The notes beneath the pieces are model-generated. The model saw nothing but the letters and a program-made list of their open reading frames with translations, had not been told where the DNA came from and did no database searches. Shown here piece by piece: positions 1 through 5,275 of a DNA stretch of 64,000 nucleotides. The stretch comes from Fimbriiglobus ruber (GTDB lineage Bacteria; Planctomycetota; Planctomycetia; Gemmatales; Gemmataceae): the NCBI RefSeq assembly GCF_002197845.1, contig NZ_NIDE01000008.1, positions 1 to 64,000 of the forward strand, read 5' to 3'. Made by a program: the position numbers and the translations under genes. Numbering within the stretch: the first letter of the stretch is position 1; each line of letters starts with the position of its first letter.

Positions 1-530
1 GTGCGACCTGCCCGGGCTGGCCACCCTGGCCCAGGAGGAACTCGACGGGCGACCGAGGCCCGCAGCGGGGCCGACGTCACCCGGGTGATTCAGAAGTTGT
101 TCGACCGGCACGCCGACCTGTTCCCGGTCCGGCCCCAGGGCGGGTGCTACTTCGCCCCGCACCGGCACGCCGGGTTCGTCGACAAGGTCCAGGTGATGCT
201 CGGGCGGCTGAACGGGCAGATCCTGCGGTTCCCGGTCCGGCCGGGACGGGCGAGGGGGACCGGAGCGTCAAGGAGGCGGTGGCCGCCGGGCTGGCCGCCC
301 TGATCGACGACCACCGGGCGGCGGTCGCCGCGTTCGGGGCGGACACCCGGGACGACACCCTGAAGCGGGCGGCCGACAAGATCCGAACCACCCGGCTGAA
401 GGTCGAGGGGTACGCCGAACTGTTGGCCGACCAGAAGGTCCGGCTGGACCGAGAACTCGAGGCCGCCCGGGACGACCTCCGGCGGACGGTCGAGCGGCTG
501 GCCGTCGCCCCCGCGGGAGGACGCCCGTGA
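1..530 (+). pseudogene. Accessory-cassette gene, frameshifted, 5' end outside window
   Basis: Coding signal runs through three frames in turn: frame 2 at about 7-50 (DLPGLATLAQEELDG), frame 1 at about 60-240 (IQKLFDRHADLFPVR, then GGCYFAPHRHAGFVD), and frame 3 from about 250 to the TGA at 528-530 (RAADKIRTTRLKVEGYAELL). Both switches are -1, as expected from single-base deletions. The last part looks helical and charged, like a coiled coil. The QGGCYFAPxxH stretch faintly recalls phage-type DUF6744 proteins; that is an untested memory. The gene overlaps the next start by 4 bases (GTGA at 527-530), so the cassette was probably an operon. No product can be made as read. Confidence 0.5.
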
Positions 531-824
531 CCGTGCTACCGTCCGCGTCGCCGGGCGACCTCGCCCGGCACGTGTTGTTCGTGACCACCCCGGCCCTGTG
601 GCCGGGGTGGCCGTTCCTGCCGGTCGTTCGCCGGGACCGCGGGGCCGAGGACCTCGGGGTGCTGTTCGACGCCCGCGGGTGTGCGGCCGGACCGGGTTCT
701 CGGCGACGGTGTTCCGGACCAATCTGTTCGACCTGCCGCCGACCGTCGACCGGCTGTTCGCTCTCCCCGGGAGGTGTTCGACTCCGGGGAGGACTTGGTC
801 CGCGCGGGCTGGCGGGTGGACTGA
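527..824 (+). pseudogene. Small accessory-cassette gene with two frameshifts
   Basis: The GTG at 527 opens MTVLPSASPGDLARHVLFVT and continues through WPFLPVVRR and EDLGVLFDARG in frame 2. The signal moves to frame 1 near 680 (TGFSATVFRTNLFDLPP) and to frame 3 near 768 (REVFDSGEDLVRAGWRVD), ending at TGA 822-824. Joined, the protein would be about 98 residues, soluble and without a signal peptide. Both shifts are -1. The same order of motifs recurs, as far as I remember, in unnamed Gemmataceae proteins. Function unknown; it belongs to the same cassette as its neighbours. Confidence 0.5.
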
Positions 825-849
825 CCGGGTCACCGAGGAGGGCGCAACC

Positions 850-2235
850 GTGATCGTGTTCCCCCGCGAGCGGGCCCGGTCGGTCCGGGCTCTGGCCCGC
901 AAGTGCGTCGCCGGTCGGCCCCGCGGCCCGGCCCCGCCGGTCGTGCTCGAGAGCCGGGCCGGCACCCTGAGCGTGTGGGTCCACACCGCGGACGCGGTCC
1001 TGACACATACGGCCCGACCGCAGGCGGCGACGGGGTACTCGTTGTTCCGATGGACGTGTTGACGGCGGTCGAGGGGACCGGGGACGAGGCGGTCGAGCTG
1101 GTCGTCGGGGAGGGGCTTCGGGGAGAAGCCCGGTGGTCCGCCCGGGGCGTCTCCCACACGCACCCGTTCGACCGGATCGAGCCCGGGAAACCGCACCGCC
1201 CGCCGCCCCCTCCGGACGACTGGCACCCGGTCCCGCCCGCATTTCTGACCGCCCTGCACGAGTGCGGGCGGACGGCCGGCCGGGAGGCGGGCGGTTCGCA
1301 TTGACCCGCGTGCAGGTGGCCGGGTCGGCCGGGCGGGTGGCCGGGACGGACGGACGCGGACCGCCCTGATCTGGGACGGGTTCGCGCTACCGTTCGACCA
1401 GGACCTGCTCGTCCCGGCCGTGCCGGTGTTCGGCGACCAGACGCTGGCCGCCGGTCCCGCGGTCCGGGTCGGGCGGACGGCCGAGCACCTGGTGGTCGAG
1501 GTCGGGCCGTGGCGGGTGTTCCTGCCCGTGGACGCCACCGGCCGGTACCCGGACGTCGCCGGGGCCGTCCCGAAGCACGCCCCGACCGTCATCACCCTCG
1601 ACGCCCCGATGCCGCCGCCCTGCTCGCCGCCTGGCCCCGCCGGCCGGGGGCCGACGCCGCGTGTCACCCGGTCACCCTGGCCGTCGACGGCGGGGTCGTC
1701 GTCCGCGGGCGGGACGAGGCCACGGGTGCGGTCGAGACGGTCCGGCTGGCCCGCCCGGCGGTCACCGGGCCGACCGCCCGGATCGCGGTCGACCGGCAGG
1801 TGCTGGCCCGCGCGCTGGCCCTCGGGTGCACCACCGTCCGGGTCGCCGCCGGGCGGCCGGTCGTGTTCGCGGGGGGCGGCCGGACGCTCGTGACCATGGC
1901 CCTCGACCCGGACCCGGCCGCGGAAGTCGAGCCCGCGACCACCGGTATCGCCGCCGCCGACCTCGTCCGGATCCCCGATCCCGCACCCGAAAGGAGAATC
2001 GCCGTGAGGCTCGAATCGAACGGCCCGCCGCGCCCGACCGGCCCGACCTGCCGCCTACCGATCCGGTCGACCCGGTGGTCGTCGCCGAGGACCTGCGGGC
2101 GGCCCTGGCCGATGCCGCCGCGAAAGCCGGGCGATTGGTCGCCGCCTGAAGTCCCGCCGGAAGGAGCAGAAGGCCCTGACCCAGGTCTGGTCGAGCCTCA
2201 AGGCCCTCCACCTCGGGCCGGGCGGATCGCCGTGA
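850..2235 (+). pseudogene. Sliding-clamp-like protein, six frameshifts
   Basis: Starts at GTG 850 (VIVFPRERARSVRALARKC). The signal steps through frames 1, 3, 2, 1, 3, 2, 1 with switches near 1015, 1303, 1362, 1606, 2000-2060 and 2145, and stops at TGA 2233-2235. Every switch is -1. Joined, it is about 460 residues. The middle part (GRYPDVAGAVPKHAPTVITL, VTLAVDGGVVVRGRDEATG, IAVDRQVLARALALG, RPVVFAGGGRTLV) follows the strand-helix order of the last domain of the DNA polymerase III beta clamp: an RYPDV-like hinge, then NRxYLLDAL-like and final P-x-x-F strands. The tail (LRAALADAAAKAGRLVAA, LKSRRKEQKALTQVWSSLKA) looks helical. Clamp similarity is an inference from pattern only. Confidence 0.42.
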
Positions 2236-2315
2236 CCGGCCGGTTGACCCCGAACACGACTCTCGTGACCGTGAGACCATCGCAGGAACCCGAATTTCCC
2301 TTCCCGAGGGCCCGC

Positions 2316-2818
2316 ATGCCCACGTCCATTCTCCCGACCGCGGCCGCCGACTCGCGCAACTGACCGACACCCTCGCCACCCTCCGGGACCGCGTCCGCGA
2401 GGCCGTGGCCGGGGAACTCGGGCGGGCCGTGGCCGACGCCGTCCGCGACCTGCTGACGGCCGTCCTCCGGGGCCACCCGGCCCCGGTCCCGCCGCCCGTC
2501 CGGCGCGACCGCTGGGACGACGACCCCGACGACTGGGACCGCCAGCCCCGCGACCGCTGGGACGCCCCGGACGACCCGGACGAGCCCCGGCCCGCGGCGG
2601 GCGGGTGGAGGCCCGAGTGGGCGGGCGCGGTGGCCGCGGCCGCGGCGGTCGGCCGGTGGCTGTTCGCCCGCCGGCTCCCGCTCTGGGCCGCGACCGGGGT
2701 CGGGGTCGTCGTCGGGGCCACCGCCCTGGCCGGTGGCCCGGCCGCCCGCGCCGTCGCCGGGGCCCTGGCCGCGGCGATCGATCTGGCCCGGCTGACCGAC
2801 CCGCCCGCGGCCTTCTGA
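2316..2818 (+). pseudogene. Membrane protein of the accessory cassette, one frameshift
   Basis: The ATG at 2316 gives MPTSILPTAAADS in frame 3. Coding then continues in frame 2 from about 2350 (RLAQLTDTLATLRDRVREAV) to TGA 2816-2818. Frame 2 itself has no ATG or GTG between the stop at 2147 and 2405, which supports a -1 frameshift near 2350 in a gene that began at 2316. The product has a helical N-terminus, an acidic Arg/Asp/Trp linker (DDDPDDWDRQPRDRWD) and one or two hydrophobic Ala/Gly/Val helices near the C-terminus. The layout matches the next gene, so the two may be distant relatives or partners. Function unknown. A shorter intact product from GTG 2405 is possible. Confidence 0.45.
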
Positions 2819-2950
2819 TCACGACCACCGCCCGCCCGTCGCAGCCCCGGGGCCACGGCCCGCAGGTCCCGCCGGAGTGCGAGTGCGTCCGGACCGGACA
2901 TCGTTTGTTCCCATTTACCGAACGCAACCCTGACACCACGGAGATCGACC

Positions 2951-3562
2951 ATGTCTGCGACTATCGCCAACGGGAAACCGCCGCGCAAACAACTCAGCGA
3001 CCAGCTCGACCGGTTGGACGGGGTCATCGACGCCCTGGCCGACGCCCTCCCGGCGGCGGTCGCCGACGCCACCCGGGACGGGACCCGGCAGGCCTTCCGG
3101 GACGTGCTGACCGAACTGCTCGCCGACCCCGCCGTCCTGACCACGCTTCGCGCGGTGATCCTCGGGCCGGGCCCCCAGATGACGCCCGCCGCCCCGGTCC
3201 CCGCCGGCCCCGCGGCCCCGCCGGCCGGTCCCGGACCGTTCGCGCGGCTCACCGCGGCCGCCCGCGGACTGGCCGGCGACGCGGCGACCGCGGCGCGGAC
3301 CGCCGCCACCGCCGTCCGGGCCCAGCTGTCCGCGGCCGCGACCGCGGTCGGGACGACCGTCCGGGCCGTCGCCGGGGTGATGCCGCTCCGGCGGATCGTC
3401 CTGGTCGGGGCCGGGGTCGGGGTGGTCACCGCGGCCGTCGGGTACGCGGCCCCGCGGGAGGTGTCGGCCGCCCTGGCCGGGGCCGGCGGGGTCGCGACCG
3501 CGATCGGCGTCCAGGTCGGGGTGTGGGCCCGCCGGGCCGCGCAGCGGTTCGGGCTCGCGTAG
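2951..3562 (+). CDS. Hypothetical membrane protein of the accessory cassette
   Basis: Intact 203-residue frame starting MSATIANGKPPRKQLSDQLD. Residues 1-70 look amphipathic and helical (coiled-coil-like). A Pro/Ala-rich linker follows at about 75-100, an Ala-rich helical stretch at 100-140, and two hydrophobic segments at about 145-185 (IVLVGAGVGVVTAAVGY and an Ala/Gly-rich helix), ending in basic residues. It resembles the preceding gene in layout: soluble coiled coil, linker, membrane hairpin. Very high GC, like the rest of 1-3.6 kb. It may anchor the clamp-like cassette to a membrane, but that is a guess. No known family recognised. Confidence 0.6.
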   Translation: MSATIANGKPPRKQLSDQLDRLDGVIDALADALPAAVADATRDGTRQAFRDVLTELLADPAVLTTLRAVILGPGPQMTPAAPVPAGPAAPPAGPGPFARLTAAARGLAGDAATAARTAATAVRAQLSAAATAVGTTVRAVAGVMPLRRIVLVGAGVGVVTAAVGYAAPREVSAALAGAGGVATAIGVQVGVWARRAAQRFGLA

Positions 3563-3688
3563 GCCCCCCGAGTCGAAGTCGGAGTGATTGAGTCGACCGA
3601 AGGTCATCCGGCCGGTCCCCGCGCCTCACGCGGCAGCCCGTGCGGACGATCTCCGGTCCGGCTGCCTCCAGATCTCCCGGAGCTTGCC

Positions 3689-3895
3689 ATGCCGCCCTCG
3701 TCCCCTGATCGGGTTGTGTTCGACGAACTCCACGTGACTCTCCTGGTCCCGCGGACCCTGCCAATTGCCGCCGCCAAACGAGTCCGGCAGGTCGTCGACG
3801 GCCGACCGTTCGTCGCCCGCTTGCGGCGGGCGATCGTTACCGTCGTGGCTCGCCACACGGCTCTTCGCGCAGTCACCGTGACCGTCGCACGATAG
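3689..3895 (+). CDS. Small hypothetical protein, 68 aa
   Basis: ATG 3689 to TAG 3893-3895 encodes MPPSSPDRVVFDELHVTLLV and ends VARHTALRAVTVTVAR. The pattern is a beta strand (ELHVTLLVP), a basic helix (AAAKRVRQVVDGRPFVARLRRA) and a closing strand (AVTVTVAR), a compact alpha/beta fold. I remember similar 65-70 residue proteins beside such cassettes in Gemmataceae, but no name. An upstream GTG/ATG would only add low-complexity sequence, so the short start is preferred. Confidence 0.5.
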   Translation: MPPSSPDRVVFDELHVTLLVPRTLPIAAAKRVRQVVDGRPFVARLRRAIVTVVARHTALRAVTVTVAR

Positions 3896-4230
3896 TCGCT
3901 CCCGCCCTCCCGTTACGATCAAACCCGCCACCACACTCGGGATGCGAAGGATATCCACGGGCGTGGCGGCGGACGGACGACGAACGCCGGGGACCAGGTG
4001 TGACTCGCGTCCGGTGTTGTGAGTGGGCGATCGGCCCCGACCCCGAGGTCGCCGCCCGCCGCCGCTCGCCTCGTCGTCGGGGTGAAGGCAACCCGCTCCG
4101 ACGTCGGCGTCCGGGTAACAACCCGTTCACTTGACCGACACCTTTTCTTAACAGGGCCGAATTTGAGAGGTGGGTGCGAGCCGCCGCCGATCACACGCAG
4201 GGGCGGGCCAGGACCGATCGCAGCTGGATT

Positions 4231-4786
4231 TCATTCCACGCGCATGACGGCCCGCCGGAGGCGGACCGTAGGGGTCATCATTTTCTTTAGCATTTGGTCG
4301 TTGTGCGGCCGACAGGCGGATGAATGGACCAGTTCGGGATGACGAGTTGGTGTCAAGCGAACAACCCTGTCCCCAGTCCCGACCGGCAGACAATCCAACC
4401 CGGTGAGGACACTCCGGACGCCGCTCCAACGTCGCGGTGTGCAGGACGAAGAAATCGGGTGCAAGACACTGGTTCGTCTGGACGAACACCGGCGCGGCCG
4501 CTACCCGCTGGAACACGGCAGTTTCGTCGCCGATCGTTTCGGAACCCGGGACCGAAGGGCGAAAGGTCGTGTGTGTCGTCCGGGGAAGTCGGGGTGGGGG
4601 AAAAAGACGGCGAAGAAGGCGGCGTGCGCGGCGAATGTAAAGCTCCCCGGTTTGTCTTCGTTCCCACCCCTTGGGCGAACGGACGGCGTTCAAACACGGC
4701 GTATGACCGGCCGCATACAACCGGGCGGCAACATCAGACCTCAAAGTATCGAGGGTTACAATAAGGACATCGGAACTTCCGGCCAA
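4231..4786 (-). pseudogene. Sulfatase-fold (alkaline phosphatase superfamily) remnant
   Basis: From ATG 4786 the minus strand reads MAGSSDVLIVTLDTLRSDV and then HTPCLNAV and GWERRQT. The VLIVTLDTLRxD motif with a following TPxLxxL is the metal-binding start of sulfatase/phosphodiesterase-type enzymes. The homologous signal then moves to another frame near 4635 (SFTFAAHAAFF) and returns near 4560 (PGSETIGDETAVFQ). Downstream frames have no stable coding signal. The gene appears to have lost both frame and most of its C-terminal part. A 212-residue frame is technically open but not credible as a functional protein beyond residue 45. Confidence 0.45.
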
Positions 4787-5226
4787 GTGTTTGTGTCGAG
4801 CATCACGGGATCGCTGCCGGACAGAGATTCGAAATACATTTTACTTCAAATTCCGAATAAGAGCGGAAGGAATGAACCTTTGGAACGGTTCATAAGTGGC
4901 GCTCTTCCTGACACGCCATAGGAGATCCCGCATCTCGTTCGGATCTCACCCGGGGTCCGAGACGAACAAGGGTGTTAACTCGAATACTACCGGGCCCCAG
5001 AGTCTCCGAAACTTTTTGCCTAGAAAAGGGCGATTTCAGGGTTCGAAGGGGTAAATGAGCCGGCATCAAACGCGTCTCAATAGAGCCCGTGACACCGCTC
5101 ACGATCGTCGCTGCGTGCGTAAACGCTTGTTGAATTAAGGAGAGAAATGCGACAACCCCTGACGTGTCTCGCCCGGTGCGTGCCTGGTTAACTGGCCGGG
5201 CGGACGTGTACGTAGCGGGAAAACTC
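4787..5226. other. Gene-free stretch
   Basis: No frame here shows convincing coding structure. The only point of note is GTTAACTGGC at 5187-5196, which is the inverse of GCCAGTTAAC at 5259-5268 inside the tRNA fragment. Confidence 0.4.
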
Positions 5227-5275
5227 GGCTCCCCCGGTAGGATTCGAACCTACGACCCGCCAGTTAACAATCGAC
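5227..5275 (-). tRNA. tRNA-Asn(GTT)-like 3' half, not a complete tRNA
   Basis: On the minus strand there is a good T-arm (GTAGG-TTCGAAT-CCTAC, complement of 5237-5253), an acceptor 3' strand CGGGGGA (5236-5230), discriminator G (5229) and CC. Upstream lies an anticodon-loop-like TTGTTAA (5270-5264) with anticodon GTT at 5268-5266. The discriminator G fits bacterial tRNA-Asn. No matching 5' acceptor strand (TCCCCCG) or D-arm is found at the right distance, so only the 3' half is present. Such fragments are typical of attachment sites left by elements that integrate into tRNA genes. Confidence 0.5.

Follow-up and report, generated by a model that had tools for sequence, protein, structure and literature searches.

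What kind of system places a gene resembling a DNA sliding clamp in a compact run of small genes at the very end of a planctomycete contig? The locus in question occupies positions 1–3895 of the stretch analysed here (the window), which comprises the first 64 000 nucleotides of contig NZ_NIDE01000008.1 (C8) of Fimbriiglobus ruber (family Gemmataceae; assembly GCF_002197845.1), read on the forward strand. Six genes lie there in the same direction, namely A (its 3′ part), B, the clamp gene C, D, E and F, in DNA whose G+C content of 0.70–0.82 falls sharply past 3.9 kilobases (kb) to 0.50–0.65 downstream. An earlier reading of the letters alone (the original prediction) had described six consecutive genes without a named family. 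The block, its single direction and its high G+C content stand; gene A, on the other hand, does have a family, DUF6744 (PF20529), which it reaches at 31.2 bits. Base 1 of the window is base 1 of the contig, the end of which cuts off the start of gene A and all that lies upstream. The block is the 3′ half of a larger cassette, and its gene C encodes a divergent three-domain paralogue of DnaN with an added C-terminal helix.

The clamp protein

Gene C (850..2235, + strand) is broken in frame in the window near 1012, 1291, 1354, 1605, 2025 and 2145; its intact copy on contig C9 of the same genome encodes 459 residues. Its likeness to a clamp escapes annotation, because Pfam finds nothing on single clamp proteins. 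Even the Pfam DnaN domain models matched just one of 30 members, in the central domain and at E=0.03, and for this reason the protein is filed as DnaN-like and not as DnaN. The evidence for the relationship comes from profiles and predicted structure. In a profile search of the PDB with 30 relatives, beta clamps (DnaN) alone rose above noise, the best at E=8.9e-11, and one of the alignments set residues 25–337 of the clamp against 24–343 of a solved beta clamp. AlphaFold, run on the clamp alignment, gave a three-domain clamp with a mean predicted local distance difference test (pLDDT) score of 87 and a core above 90. The best 50 matches of Foldseek against the PDB were all DnaN clamps, with E-values down to 6.5e-21, TM-scores on target of up to 0.76 and about 13–19% identity in the structural alignment. 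Thus the clamp fold, the prediction of which had been set beforehand as a test, was obtained with high confidence; the original prediction had recognized the last clamp domain only, a restriction that falls away, as all three DnaN domains are covered.

It should be noted that the family shares the whole fold and a profile likeness over the full core with DnaN, but differs from it in low identity, in an extra linker followed by a basic C-terminal helix (residues 406–450 of the model, past a loose linker; both are retained in nearly all members), in its clustering with AAA+ genes, and in being found beside an ordinary DnaN in the same genome. In F. ruber the ordinary DnaN is a separate gene on contig C2, and a profile comparison aligned residues 27–358 of the clamp with 23–369 of that protein at E=3.5e-8. 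One homologue (in genome G034) matches the processivity factor PHROG 947 at E=1e-14; no relatives were confirmed in IMG/VR, and tblastn found none in phages. Matches to Thiol_cytolysin and eIF3 (E about 0.03–0.07) were discarded as chance. Pattern scans relied on a closer alignment (A2), the full-depth clamp alignment (A1) being too diverse for them.

The intact cassette and its partner proteins

The clamp family occurs in 43 of the 149 genomes of our set of relatives (numbered G002 to G089 where they are named here). In a phylum-wide sample it was matched in 12 of 294 genomes, ten of them strongly and all ten in the same class. The intact order in the Gemmataceae is a MoxR AAA+ protein (RavA-like), a von Willebrand factor A (vWA) protein (ViaA-like), DUF6744, B, clamp, D, E and F. 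The order MoxR, vWA, DUF6744, (B), clamp, D/E and F recurs in G002, G034, G039, G065, G077, G084, G088 and G089, with some cassette genes absent in these eight Gemmataceae genomes or truncated by a contig end. Three copies of MoxR–vWA–DUF6744–clamp are present in G003, where B, D and E were not detected. Among the DUF6744 matches of the relatives set, own genome included, 28 of 43 have a clamp within 7 kb. Whether relatives of the clamp keep company with the other genes had been posed as a second test; in other Gemmataceae they do, with MoxR, vWA and DUF6744 added upstream.

The MoxR protein belongs to bpMoxR (PF20030, 164.7 bits against a cut-off of 27, E=1.9e-48) and also resembles RavA (NF010054, E=2.8e-48), reaching 165 of the 681 bits of the equivalog cut-off; the vWA protein resembles ViaA (NF008230, E=8.4e-17) with 61.5 of 500 bits. 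Because both fall far under the NCBIfam equivalog cut-offs, we call them only RavA-like and ViaA-like. A vWA protein of 463 residues has a weak VWA_2 match, at 297–342 only, and no beta-propeller family was found in it. DUF6744 is reached at 31.2, 38.2 and 40.2 bits (cut-off 27). Its model (pLDDT 86) matches no solved fold, and there is no convincing sequence match in the PDB; among viral proteins, however, four match at E<1e-10, HVTV-1 supplying one of them. The ratio of non-synonymous to synonymous substitution rates (dN/dS) is 0.14–0.39 for DUF6744, 0.31 for vWA, 0.17–0.58 for the clamp and 0.66–0.88 for E: the motor side is conserved, and the clamp and E change faster.

Three sets of AAA+ partners

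The clamp is found beside three different sets of AAA+ genes. In type I the partners are the MoxR, vWA and DUF6744 proteins just described. Type II (G012, G035, G039 and G051) comprises an AAA_5 ATPase, a remote DUF6744, a DUF2201 metallopeptidase/vWA-like protein and the clamp, with D and E in most. Type III, seen in G005 and in other families of planctomycetes, has the order DUF1257-like protein, IetA/Ycf46-like AAA, a 320-residue protein, the small proteins P82 and P101, the clamp and a ‘GSRGAS’ protein; a PD-(D/E)XK nuclease is present in many loci, and D and E are absent. Loci L082, L083, L085, L173 and similar ones are examples of type III, the AAA protein of which finds a match in the phage family phrog_8638 (E=2e-89).

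In the clamp tree the family stands apart from DnaN (98/99) and type II is basal to the type I of the Gemmataceae, while in the DUF6744 tree a very long branch lies between types I and II. Since type II clamps are basal to type I and the type II DUF6744 is very distant from that of type I, the clamp has, by these trees, changed its AAA+ partners, one set having been exchanged for another. A tree also hinted that the link between clamp and trio had arisen independently in G003 and in the other Gemmataceae; this was not upheld, a single clade of types I and II not being rejected (p-AU 0.39).

The trio also occurs elsewhere. Two Brevibacillus plasmids and the Moorella phage MTATph1 carry DUF6744, AAA and vWA genes, the same three families close together, but there DUF6744 precedes the AAA gene, and a dnaN is found in only one of the three records, about 5 kb from the trio on one Brevibacillus plasmid. 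HVTV-1 has genes for an AAA protein, a vWA protein and a protein of the DUF6744 fold, the three not being adjacent. Among the relatives, trios without a clamp are seen in G047, G058, G073 and one locus of G089. In two clamp-less MoxR–vWA–DUF6744–B loci the genes are followed by a shared protein of about 125 residues (L165:12422-12829 and L168:7133-7507), which may be the counterpart of the DUF6573 gene that follows vWA on the Brevibacillus plasmids.

The window copy and its counterparts in the genome

Around gene C, all on the + strand, the window carries the 3′ part of gene A (1..530; frame broken near 45 and 236; the rest beyond the contig end), gene B (527..823; about 100 residues, no family; broken near 606, 676 and 764), gene D (2232..2818; broken near 2346), gene E (2951..3562; 203 residues, open) and gene F (3689..3895; about 68 residues, no family, open). 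The C9 copy of gene A is open over 294 residues and matches PF20529 at E=1.4e-7; that of gene D is open over 184 residues, with one hydrophobic stretch. Eleven homologues of gene B could be aligned (A5) at 49–60% identity, and where present they lie between DUF6744 and the clamp. D and E had been given a coiled-coil plus membrane-hairpin layout; the coiled N-terminus and hydrophobic C-terminus are there in both, and the hairpins are plausible, though borderline by hydropathy.

Positions 1..5234 of the window are duplicated on C9 at 97–99% identity, with insertion elements breaking up the C9 copy at window positions 608 and about 5070. At the latter, the 12 bases of window 5062–5073 flank the transposase insertion in C9 on both sides, like a target-site duplication. 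Compared with C9, the window lacks a single base at ten places and two bases at one, carries insertions of 2, 8 and 3 bases, and differs by 92 substitutions; its indels fall within positions 45–2821 and break frames A to D. Because many of the deletions sit in single-base runs and the block lies at a contig end, sequencing or assembly error is as likely a cause as decay. The block had been called decaying; its broken frames and the lesions in other copies agree with this, but assembly error would explain the window equally well, the two being inseparable because each of C6, C8, C9, C18 and C20 has an end in or near these repeats. Damage to the cassettes of this genome is plausible in view of the lesions in other copies, and is putative for the window copy. 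The window, C17 and one C20 copy (C20a) lose the frame of gene A at nearly one position, which raised the idea of a programmed frameshift; the idea was dropped, as C9, C18, C6 and the other C20 copy (C20b) are open there.

Further copies in the 12.4-Mb genome lie on C9 (97% identical), C17, C18, C20 (two) and C6 (about 73%), with short remnants on C5. C6 and C18 share an overlap of 6 kb (99.6%) and perhaps represent a single place, for which reason the safe count of cassette sites is six. Frameshifts, stops, introns or insertion sequences are present in other copies too. Inside the vWA gene on C17 (L022:7290-9676) lies a group II intron (Rfam RF00029) that carries a 690-residue reverse transcriptase; it is also present in the C9, C18, C6 and C20 copies, at one site about 15 codons before the metal ion-dependent adhesion site (MIDAS) motif. 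Judged against the C20 copy that lacks the intron, its removal would join the exons in frame. On C9, two insertions divide gene B: an IS630-like transposase, and a second group II intron that has a reverse transcriptase of its own (L021:13650-17140). Contigs C6, C8, C9, C18 and C20 break in or near the cassette, its intron or its insertion sequences, and therefore copy number and frames are provisional.

Signs of mobility

A large serine recombinase lies near the cassette in six loci (Pfam was run on two), and a DnaQ/ExoX-type exonuclease in an overlapping six; Pfam confirms Recombinase, Exonuclease/ExoX_C and GP88 beside cassettes, and Prim-Pol with Phage_integrase at one G088 locus. On contig 22 of G088 the recombinase directly follows pabA, and homology to three relatives ends there within 80 bases of one another; in G089 a dihydrolipoyl dehydrogenase-like gene stands next to pabA instead of the recombinase. 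Judged from these neighbours, the cassette is probably mobile. The earlier suggestion of a replication-linked plasmid or phage module is supported in part by these recombinases, the integrase, the Prim-Pol and the exonuclease, and by the trio on the Brevibacillus plasmids and the Moorella phage; the window segment itself had no blastn match among plasmids. Integration at a tRNA was considered, as a tRNA-Ser adjoins integrases in G077 and in F. ruber, and was rejected, there being no matching repeat on the other side.

What the cassette may do

Our preferred explanation, held tentatively and as somewhat short of probable, is that the window block forms the downstream half of a mobile cassette whose products make up an AAA+ machine centred on a DNA sliding clamp of its own. 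A MoxR hexamer and a vWA adaptor, with DUF6744 as coupler, would act on the clamp ring, opening, loading, unloading or remodelling it; MoxR–vWA pairs grip a client peptide and remodel the client (PMC7159879), and the C-terminal helix of the clamp may be the handle that is gripped. The clamp would then tether an enzyme of the element to DNA, whether the DnaQ/ExoX-type exonuclease or Prim-Pol in type I or the PD-(D/E)XK nuclease in type III, in the service of maintenance or transfer of the element, and D and E may anchor the whole assembly to the membrane. Several observations weigh against this scheme. Contact between MoxR–vWA and the clamp is something that we infer, and where the function of MoxR–vWA pairs is known, they remodel proteins and are not known to load clamps (PMC7159879). 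No clamp was detected with 15 of the 43 DUF6744 matches, so that the MoxR–vWA–DUF6744 trio can work without one. The search for an empty integration site gave no clean example, the left boundary after pabA being sharp and the right end not aligned. Amongst the predicted ring-lining helices only the first is strongly basic (mean net charge +4.1, with +1.9 for helix 6 and −1.8 to +0.5 for the others); several are neutral or acidic, and DNA encirclement is therefore not assured.

The last point would suit a clamp fold that has ceased to encircle DNA and been reused as a protein scaffold, or as a client on which the RavA/ViaA-like pair acts as chaperone. The same can be said of the distance of the family from the DnaN models, and of the fact that the known RavA–ViaA clients are membrane or respiratory enzymes. 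We consider this unlikely, since the protein retains its three domains and the first basic helix and DNA enzymes are among the neighbours in types I and III. The main rival, somewhat less unlikely though still improbable, is a defence or conflict system of the MoxR–vWA ternary kind, in which the clamp-like protein would sense foreign replicating DNA, MoxR–vWA would relay the signal, and D and E would damage the membrane. In its favour, conflict systems use the same MoxR family, and D and E, with their hydrophobic C-termini, could be membrane effectors; the bpMoxR match, the fast variation of E, a clamp that changes faster than DUF6744 and the many copies per genome also fit. However, PADLOC 2023 gave no convincing match for the type I proteins (IetA-like AAA was matched in type III only), D and E are missing from type III and were not detected at the G003 type I loci, and the companions are recombinases, nuclease and primase-polymerase rather than recognized effectors. 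That the cassette is decayed debris only, as the ten one-base deletions in the window and the stops, introns or insertion sequences elsewhere might suggest, is very improbable, and for the family as a whole is refuted by open, ordered copies in several other genomes and by dN/dS values of 0.14–0.58 for DUF6744 and the clamp.

Known systems resemble the cassette in part. Its MoxR and vWA proteins resemble RavA and ViaA best, but score far below their equivalogs and are linked to DUF6744 and a clamp. The MoxR–vWA ternary conflict systems (Kaur et al. 2020, PMC7159879), for which bpMoxR was named and which are frequent in planctomycetes, likewise combine MoxR, vWA and a third component, whereas by Pfam the cassette is without a beta-propeller, VMAP, iSTAND or FtsH component. 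The CobS–CobT clusters of tailed viruses share a MoxR-like AAA+ protein with vWA in virus genomes, but the three HVTV-1 genes do not adjoin one another, and CobST are read there as cobalamin genes (PMC8651126). The words clamp and DnaN do not occur in PMC7159879. In searches that left most subscription journals outside, we found no paper joining sliding clamp, MoxR and von Willebrand, no mention of DUF6744 and no account of the pairing of this clamp with its AAA+ partners.

It is possible, if doubtful, that the cassettes represent a new class of DNA machine, a mobile-element clamp run by MoxR–vWA AAA+ chaperones and not by a DnaX/RFC-type loader, with the clamp having moved between unrelated AAA+ sets. 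As a rule, sliding clamps belong to the core replication machinery, occur in single copy and depend on one kind of loader. A family of additional clamps, numbering as many as about six in a genome and linked with three AAA+ sets, would imply that mobile elements have privatised the clamp function. The clamp would also offer a testable client for the so far unexplained DUF6744–MoxR–vWA trio, and what the MoxR–vWA pairs of phages and plasmids act on becomes a question that can be tested directly.

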